Of a stretch of 64,000 bases of DNA, positions 37,892 through 40,755 are shown one piece after another. The position numbers were made by a program, and so were the translations under genes. Within the stretch, counting starts at the first letter, position 1. Each line of letters starts with the position of its first letter. The stretch is from the NCBI GenBank assembly GCA_958295945.1, contig OY282386.1:1-64000 (forward strand), written 5' to 3'. Source of the DNA: Candidatus Poribacteria bacterium. Lineage in GTDB: Bacteria; Poribacteria; WGA-4E; WGA-3G. The notes beneath the pieces are model-generated. The model was not told where the DNA came from, made no database searches, and was given only the letters and a program-made list of their open reading frames with translations.

Positions 37892-37978
37892 TTAATCTGG
37901 ATAATGTCATCTCTTGTAAATTTTGCCTAATTTTGATAATCTATTATTAAACAGAACAATGAACTATGGAGAATGTTA

Positions 37979-38815
37979 ATGTTTACTATTCAGTCCACTT
38001 TAACCGAGGAGGAAAAGTGGTCCTTTGATTTACACGGATTCCTCGTTTTGCAGAACGTACTTCTAAAAGATGAGATAGATGAGATGTTAGCTGTACTGCA
38101 GCATTGGCTAACAATAGATGAATCAGACATCCCACGACCATTACACCGTGGCAGGCAAGAACCGTGTAAGACACATATAAACCATATACAATATGGACAT
38201 CGTCTGTTTCAAGACCTTGCCATGAACCCACATATTATACGAGTTGTAGCAGGATTAATGATGAACGCGCCGCGTCTCTTTCACAACAATTTTACGATGA
38301 TGACAAAGCACGATTATCCACAACACTTTCATCGTGATGATAGTGGGTTTAAGTTTCCACCGGATTTCAGTAATCCACATAACGATTATCAAGCAGGTGG
38401 AGGACATATCTATTCCAACCATATTGCAACTTGGGTGGCATTGGTAGATGTGCCACAAGGAACAGGATTTTGCCTTGTCCCTGGTAGTCATAAATCCCAA
38501 TTTCAAACGCCAGAACATCTACCGGTTAAACACGATCCACCCACCTCAATCACGTTACCGATGCAGGCGGGTGATGTTGCTATCTTTTCAACGAACCTGC
38601 TCCATGATGCAAGCCCGTGGACAGAGGATTATCCACGTATGAACATATTTCAACGGTATCAATTGAGTGTGTATTTCAATGAAGGTGGCAAAGGGGGGTA
38701 TCCCTATGATGAATATCGTGATCAGATTTGTGAGGAACAGTATGAACTGGAATCGTTTTCTAAAGAACTGAAGGCGGTTGTTAAACGCATTTTACCAAAT
38801 GGAGGTGATGAATGA
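37979..38815 (+). CDS. phytanoyl-CoA dioxygenase (PhyH) family oxygenase, 2
   Basis: The start at 37979 has TGGAG at a better distance than the ATG at 37973. The 278-residue protein has the Fe(II) residues HRDD in HFHRDDSGF and a distal His in LLHDASPWT. The basic residue expected to bind 2-oxoglutarate is in the PRMNIFQRYQ block. Its stop overlaps the start of the following short-chain dehydrogenase by 4 bp (ATGA), so the two enzymes are coupled and probably hydroxylate and then oxidise the same compound. Confidence 0.9.
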   Translation: MFTIQSTLTEEEKWSFDLHGFLVLQNVLLKDEIDEMLAVLQHWLTIDESDIPRPLHRGRQEPCKTHINHIQYGHRLFQDLAMNPHIIRVVAGLMMNAPRLFHNNFTMMTKHDYPQHFHRDDSGFKFPPDFSNPHNDYQAGGGHIYSNHIATWVALVDVPQGTGFCLVPGSHKSQFQTPEHLPVKHDPPTSITLPMQAGDVAIFSTNLLHDASPWTEDYPRMNIFQRYQLSVYFNEGGKGGYPYDEYRDQICEEQYELESFSKELKAVVKRILPNGGDE

Positions 38816-39573
38816 AACTAAAGGATCAGGTATGTATTATCACAGGGGGTGGTAGTGGCATTGGTCGTGATGCAACCATCAAAATGGTACAGGAAGGTGC
38901 TAAGGTTGTGATTATTGGGAGAACAGAATCTAAGTTGGATGCTGTCAAAACAGAAGTAGAAGCAGCAGGTGGAACAGTGGTAAGTTGGACGCTTGATGTG
39001 TCTGACTACGATGCTGTTCAACAGATGGCAAACGATGTGCTTGACAACTTTGGAAAGATTGATATTCTTGTGAACAATGCTGGACACAGTTCACACAATC
39101 GCAGACTTCTCAATACGACACCTGAGGAAGTGCGTTCAGTCGTTGATTCAAACCTAATCGGCACGTTTTTCTGCACACAAGCGGTTGTGTCTGCAATGCT
39201 GAAAGCAAAATCGGGAACAATTATCAATATATCTTCGCTTGCGGCAGTCACTCCAGGGCCTTTTAGTGGCTTCGCTTACGGCGCGGCAAAAGCAGGAGTA
39301 ATCAATTTTACTGAATTTCTCAACAATGATTTGAGGAATACAGGCATTAGGGCAAGTGTGATAATTCCTGGAGAGGTAGCAACACCTATTCTGGATAACA
39401 GACCAATTCCACCTGATGATGACGCACGCACAATGATGGTAGATGTTGCAGAAACATCAGAGGCAATAATGCTCATTGCAACCTTACCGCCACGTAGTAA
39501 CATACCGGAATTGGTTATCCGTCCGACAATGCATCGGGATATGGCGGGGGAAGTCGTTGAATTAGATGACTGA
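38812..39573 (+). CDS. short-chain dehydrogenase/reductase (SDR)
   Basis: This 253-residue classical SDR has TGGGSGIG (about 11-18), NNAG, the catalytic Ser in NISSLAA and YGAAKAG with the Tyr-Lys pair. It is an NAD(P)-dependent alcohol oxidoreductase of unknown substrate. It overlaps the PhyH gene by 4 bp, which suggests sequential action. It converges on the DUF3179 gene with 4 bp between. Confidence 0.94.
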   Translation: MKLKDQVCIITGGGSGIGRDATIKMVQEGAKVVIIGRTESKLDAVKTEVEAAGGTVVSWTLDVSDYDAVQQMANDVLDNFGKIDILVNNAGHSSHNRRLLNTTPEEVRSVVDSNLIGTFFCTQAVVSAMLKAKSGTIINISSLAAVTPGPFSGFAYGAAKAGVINFTEFLNNDLRNTGIRASVIIPGEVATPILDNRPIPPDDDARTMMVDVAETSEAIMLIATLPPRSNIPELVIRPTMHRDMAGEVVELDD

Positions 39574-39577
39574 TAGA

Positions 39578-40726
39578 TTACGGTTTGTATATGGTTGTTT
39601 CAGGATAGAAACGTGCCCAAGCAAACCAGTAAATATTGACCGAGGATAACCGTTGTAAACGTTTCCCTTTGTGTTTGCCTGATGTCGCTTTACCTGTAAT
39701 GAGATTCCATTCTGTGTCGGAATTATCTTTAGCGAAATGACCATCCGTGGATGTAAAAAGTCCCACTTTATTGTCTACTATACGTCTAAAAACAGCAGTT
39801 GCAAACGACTTTTTGTCATGAAAGATTAACAAAGGCACACCGTTAACTGTATCGTTGAGGATAGCGGTTTTTGCAAATTGTGTAAGCGGATAGGCTCTAT
39901 ACTGTGTGTTATAATGGGCAACTGCACCATCAGCACCATCTTGTCCATCAGCACCTGCCTCTCCATCTAATCTGTCCTCACCATATTTTCTTTGTACTTG
40001 GACTCCGATCACAAGGGATTTATTAGGTAGTCTTTTATCGGTGTATTTCATGCCACTTACACCAGTGTCCCGGCTGGCGTGATACCTTTGATATGTATCA
40101 TGACTCAAACTTTCAACCATACTTCCCCTGAACGGAACTGAAAGGACTTTCGTGTTGGGGTAATTTGTCATCCACTTATTCCACTCAATTTGTGGCATAG
40201 AAGCGAGAGGTTTCAATTGTTTACCTTTCAAAGGTCCTTGAATGGCTTTTCCAGTAATGTGTGACCAAAGGGAACGCGTTTGATGGTCGTACATTAACAG
40301 TGAATCTCTCCACAATTTACCACTGACACCAAAGGTATAGGTTTCTTCTTCCAGTTCCCGGCTATACACGATAGCCGTATTGCAGAGTGGTCACCATGTA
40401 GTAGCGATTTTCTCTCCACCGACAACATCGTTGACAATTTCATGTCCGTTCAACAGATAGATTGAGTAGGCATGACTTTCATCGTTGAATGTTACACCGA
40501 TGACCGGTGCATCCATGTCTAATTTTGCTTTGGCAGCTGGCACGAATTGGGGTTTTGTAATAGCGGGAATTGCATCAAAATCCAATAGGGTTTTGATGGG
40601 ATCGTTGTCATAGTCTGCTGCTGTTGCACAAAGGGTGGCGGAGAGTAATAGTGTGAGAATGGCAATATAAAAATAGAATTTGAGAGAATTAAATGTGTTT
40701 TTTCTTGGGGTTATATACTTTGGCAC
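39578..40726 (-). CDS. DUF3179 selenoprotein, in-frame TGA at codon 112
   Basis: The reading frame from 40726 to 39578 is open for 382 residues except for one TGA at 40391-40393 (codon 112). Before it is a signal peptide (FYFYIAILTLLLSATLCATA) and GHEIVNDVVGGEKIATTW; after it come PLCNTAIVYSRE, FGVSGKLWRDSLLMYD and SLWSHITGKA, all DUF3179 blocks. DUF3179 homologues carry a CPLC motif here, so TGA stands for selenocysteine in U-P-L-C. A 7-bp hairpin lies 13 nt downstream at the position expected for a bacterial SECIS. TGA is a real stop elsewhere in this window. A redox role is inferred. The alternative is a nonsense pseudogene. A Gly-Ala-Asp-rich insert lies near residue 260. Confidence 0.8.
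40359..40377 (-). promoter_or_regulatory. predicted bacterial SECIS hairpin of the DUF3179 gene
   Basis: On the minus strand CGGCTAT, loop CGTGT, ATAGCCG gives a perfect 7-bp stem and 5-nt loop. There are 13 nt between the TGA and the stem and 20 nt to the loop. This fits the bacterial SECIS rule (loop 16-37 nt from UGA, a G in the first two loop bases, upper stem of 4-16 bp). It would recruit SelB. Confidence 0.75.
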
Positions 40727-40755
40727 TACTATTCCTCCTCAGATTAAAAATAACA

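Follow-up and report, generated by a model that had tools for sequence, protein, structure and literature searches.

Our analysis indicates that the DUF3179 gene found in the window (the whole 64,000-nucleotide stretch of Candidatus Poribacteria DNA that was analyzed) is very probably an intact selenoprotein gene, with selenocysteine (Sec) inserted at an in-frame UGA and with a role for the product that depends on a UxxC pair. The first part of this statement, recoding of the UGA to Sec under a conserved SECIS hairpin, appears close to conclusive from comparison with relatives. An earlier, sequence-only reading of this DNA had proposed a selenoprotein with a Cys to Sec change in a CPLC motif and a bacterial SECIS, and our results support that proposal. 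It had named a genome devoid of selB/selC, random stops, or TAA or TAG, in homologues and a hairpin not conserved in relatives as grounds for rejection, and none of these was found.

The TGA is the sole interruption of the 382-residue frame and lies in the context ATTW-U-PLCNTAIVY (Table 1). The match to Pfam family PF11376 (DUF3179) spans it, running from residue 51 to residue 377 (E 3.7e-75) and over profile positions 2-292 of 292, with 253.5 bits against a gathering cut-off of 27. Frame and family match together thus confirm that the two in-frame pieces noted previously belong to one DUF3179 gene split by a single TGA. When the window was scanned for TGA-split frames (60 or more codons to either side, no overlap with another long ORF), this gene was the only one with a demonstrated family match across the TGA. 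The host genome is represented by one contig of 5.34 Mb. Upstream of the gene lies a co-oriented DUF5677 gene, and downstream a convergent SDR gene; the SDR gene and a PhyH gene (window 37973-39573) both converge on DUF3179. A convergent SDR gene, on the opposite strand to DUF3179, is present at 38 of 41 relatives' loci, and the gene that follows it on its strand, at the position held by PhyH in the window, at 26 of the 41. Their recurrence is probably synteny. No co-directional operon partner of DUF3179 kept across relatives was found in the 3-kb flanks of these 41 loci.

Table 1. Features of the DUF3179 gene and its product, in window coordinates.
Feature	Position	Strand	Remarks
DUF3179 gene, probable selenoprotein	39578..40726	minus	382 aa when the TGA is counted as a residue; GTG start, TAA stop
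Shine-Dalgarno AGGAGG	40734..40739	minus	from sequence; 7 nt ahead of the GTG start
GTG start codon	40726-40724	minus	DUF3179 gene
Probable signal peptide, residues 1-36	40619..40726	minus	cleavage site between ATA and ADY; hydrophobic helix 11-34 in the model; by eye
Repeat 1, residues 74-178	40193..40507	minus	carries UPLC; homologous to repeat 2
UGA codon, predicted Sec	40391..40393	minus	residue 112, position 1 of UPLC; TGA in 55/55 distinct orthologues; every Cys form has Cys here
SECIS hairpin CGGCUAU-CGUGU-AUAGCCG	40359..40377	minus	synonymous conservation, compensatory pairs, absent from Cys forms
Collagen-like Gly-X-Y insert GEAGADGQDGADGAV	39920..39964	minus	between the repeats; variable length
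Repeat 2, residues 268-372	39611..39925	minus	HDKK replaces UPLC; Rieske-like fold in the model
TAA stop codon	39580-39578	minus	DUF3179 gene

DUF3179 was found in 75 of the 85 Poribacteria genomes. The sequence-only reading had suggested looking for the same TGA in other members of the phylum, and by count from the table of matches 69 of the 85 genomes have a DUF3179 copy with one in-frame stop. This stop is always TGA, and no TAA or TAG was found inside any listed match from the 85 genomes. In every copy read, the TGA falls at the U column. The copies read included 71 with UPLC (55 distinct), all with the TGA as the first position of the motif; a DUF3179 fragment in genome G024 also carries UPLC, and three copies of distant families have UHLC in its place. 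The diverged UHLC subfamily (L094, L095 and L096) has a compensated SECIS stem. Had only a single genome been available, a solitary in-frame stop of this kind could equally have come from a nonsense mutation or sequencing error, that is, a pseudogene or an assembly artefact. That explanation is refuted by conservation and its probability is practically nil, as 55 distinct orthologues share the identical TGA and have intact frames on both sides of it; their genomes were assembled independently, and some are single-contig.

The second line of evidence is the hairpin, which begins 13 nt past the UGA and has 7 bp and a loop of 5 nt whose second position is G, a geometry already described from the sequence alone and confirmed here. 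From the UGA to the start of its apical loop there are 20 nt, and its loop size, second-position G, 7 bp and 20-nt spacing satisfy the published bSECIS constraints (PMC13188914). The constraint test also gave a value of -10.5, with -7.9 for the hairpin alone. Folding energy was dropped as proof of a SECIS, because the fold of the 54-nt segment alone was inseparable from that of shuffled sequences (z -0.58). The 19-nt hairpin was attained by just 14 of 2000 synonymous recodings. Among the 55 distinct orthologues, codons +5 to +9 after the UGA had a synonymous entropy of 0.00-0.13 bits, compared with a mean of 1.33 bits (minimum 0.31) at 123 other conserved codons. The 20-nt spacing and an xGUxU loop are common to the UPLC and UHLC subfamilies, between which three of the five core stem pairs are changed on both sides; these compensatory changes occupied 8 cells (0/500 shuffles). 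All five core pairs are kept in 37 of 38 distinct TGA forms, whereas the Cys forms have at most three of the five, and none of 16 has the full core. In our judgment this comparison settles the matter, in that selection appears to maintain the hairpin in the Sec forms and the Cys forms do without it.

The machinery for Sec insertion is also present. The sequence-only reading had proposed a search for selA, selB, selC and selD, and all four were found in the host genome. The tRNA-Sec gene (selC) scores 78.1 bits and has the anticodon tca (UCA), selB adjoins it, and selD is of the Sec type, with an in-frame TGA in CAGUASK. At this selD locus (L051:1480-2529) the selenophosphate synthetase is thus itself a Sec form. 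Across the 85 Poribacteria genomes, SelB was found in 76 and tRNA-Sec in 73. SelB is present in 65 of the 69 genomes with a TGA-type DUF3179, and the four with no SelB match (G024, G033, G059 and G060) have a completeness of 73-83%. We noted a second selenoprotein candidate in the host genome about 1 kb from selB (L018:5681-7015, minus strand), a lipoprotein whose C-terminal part is AhpC/TSA-like and which has the context FYRGWW-U-PVC and its own strong hairpin. This protein is like DUF3179 in its UxxC motif (UPVC) and in a loop that starts 20 nt after the UGA. The two proteins are unrelated, however, with the L018 candidate being of a thioredoxin-fold family going by motif only.

These data also bear on whether UGA might have another meaning throughout the genome, such as Trp, or be leaky, with two products formed and Sec not inserted. 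The frame is open with the TGA read as any residue, and the UGA is followed by C, which is a leaky context. Against this, TGA terminates 5 of the 42 long ORFs in the window, where readthrough would run for 1 to 44 codons, every Cys form has Cys at the TGA column, the genome has the sel genes, and the hairpin covaries. We consider reassignment or leakiness extremely improbable. In Sec insertion, SelB charged with Sec-tRNA(Sec) would bind the hairpin and Sec would be put in at residue 112, with CPLC becoming UPLC; this reading is strongly supported by the comparison of homologues.

Cys-type DUF3179 proteins of Poribacteria (CPLC, CPEC and CSEC) have the same two-repeat architecture and share the invariant CxxC column with the Sec form, but have a Cys codon there and lack the SECIS hairpin. 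Their alignment bears out the earlier statement that the TGA stands in place of the first Cys of CPLC. A tree built from 28 Poribacteria sequences, which is unrooted and has some long end branches, places the Sec and Cys forms on opposite sides of one branch with support of 98/98. This is consistent with a single Sec/Cys change within the sampled sequences, and Sec-type DUF3179 is apparently a phylum-wide clade of single origin in Poribacteria.

The N terminus resembles a signal peptide when read by eye, ATA-AD at the putative cleavage site is largely kept among orthologues, and the protein is probably exported from the cytoplasm. Repeats 1 and 2 align with each other in HHalign (99.5%, E 1.4e-22), and judged from sequence the protein is a tandem duplication in which the motif is retained only by repeat 1; this repeat alone of the two homologous domains would keep the catalytic pair. 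The Gly-X-Y insert varies in length (it is longer in L058); the window protein has it, as do close relatives, whereas the other diverged members in the alignment lack it. Neither CxxC/UxxC position varies among diverse DUF3179 members (27 of 27), and E96, N99, D100 and W154 are likewise invariant. In most of these members the mature domain has no Cys/Sec besides this pair, and in the mature window protein the pair provides the only thiol/selenol.

No solved structure related by sequence was found in the PDB, and no NCBIfam model was found for the protein. The AlphaFold2 model of the full-length protein is of moderate quality (pLDDT 68.7, pTM 0.48) and has residues 113-116 in a beta-hairpin turn; repeat 1 modeled alone reached a pLDDT of 35. 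Repeat 2 of the model matched Rieske ferredoxins best in Foldseek (probability 1.00), with E values of at least 0.014, which are not significant. About 90 residues of it align with the Rieske ferredoxin fold (2qpz and 4nbb, among others) and with the cluster-free NirD (2jo6) at Z 7 to 8, including Z 8.3 and 3.0 A over 92 residues for 2qpz (VIA). Unlike Rieske ferredoxins, DUF3179 lacks the CxH and CxxH cluster ligands, its only conserved Cys being in UxxC/CxxC, and has no profile similarity to them. Assignment to the Rieske family failed when profiles were compared with those of Rieske domains from the host genome, and also in Pfam, which gave no Rieske match to either repeat. We took the resemblance as a lead only, because Z of ~8 can arise by common arrangement, the profiles fail and the ligands are absent; it is suggestive only of a Rieske fold devoid of cluster ligands in the modeled repeat 2. 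By sequence register, the UPLC site would take the place of a hairpin turn and not of the cluster loops. A tentative and rather doubtful extension is that DUF3179 is an exported enzyme, used across the whole of Poribacteria, of tandem, ligand-free Rieske-fold domains with its CxxC/UxxC redox pair in a beta-hairpin turn of the first only. If true, this would be a Sec redox scaffold unlike the thioredoxin fold.

The sequence-only reading had held that Sec implies a redox or metal role. The redox part is reasonable in view of the invariant motif pair, and the function that we somewhat favor is that of an exported selenenylsulfide/dithiol oxidoreductase, in which Sec112 and Cys115, not far along the chain from E96, N99 and D100 (all invariant), would cycle between selenol/thiol and selenenylsulfide outside the cytoplasm. 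In a metal-binding role, Sec would still be inserted, and the UxxC turn would form a zinc- or rubredoxin-knuckle-like, mercury or copper site and not a redox catalyst. The CPLCG of the Cys forms does look like a metal knuckle, the pair lies in a beta-hairpin turn of the model, CPxC hairpin turns are also found in metal sites, and the acidic residues E96 and D100, both invariant, lie close by along the chain. Most of the mature proteins, however, have only two Cys/Sec, with no second conserved Cys pair, and there is no invariant His, as H95 is R in the UHLC forms. To our knowledge, Sec in place of a structural metal ligand would also be unusual. We therefore consider a metal site unlikely, while still giving it some weight.

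The novelty of a Sec-containing DUF3179, which the sequence-only reading had left unchecked, was not borne out, as DUF3179 with UxxC/T is already tabulated as a Sec-containing family in two reviews of prokaryotic selenoproteins (PMC9312934, PMC13188914). In their tables, these reviews credit it to Zhang & Gladyshev 2007 and a symbiont of Olavius algarvensis. As far as the tables describe it, the 2007 form is of the same Pfam family (PF11376) with Sec in UxxC, and comes from a deltaproteobacterial symbiont, whereas the form described here is a phylum-wide Poribacteria clade that includes a UHLC subfamily. The window gene therefore represents a new, well-supported lineage of a known family, and not a new family. 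No mention of selenoproteins together with Poribacteria was found in the literature searched. What is new here is the phylum-wide Sec clade of apparently single origin, the UHLC subfamily and the protein anatomy.

These findings affect how the gene is read in Poribacteria, a sponge-associated phylum. In most Poribacteria, annotation that takes UGA as a stop would split it in two or label it a pseudogene; on our evidence it is one intact selenoprotein gene. For DUF3179, a family whose function is not known, Sec112 and Cys115 can now be named as the residue pair of interest. The Sec form is seemingly fixed over most of one phylum and not sporadic.
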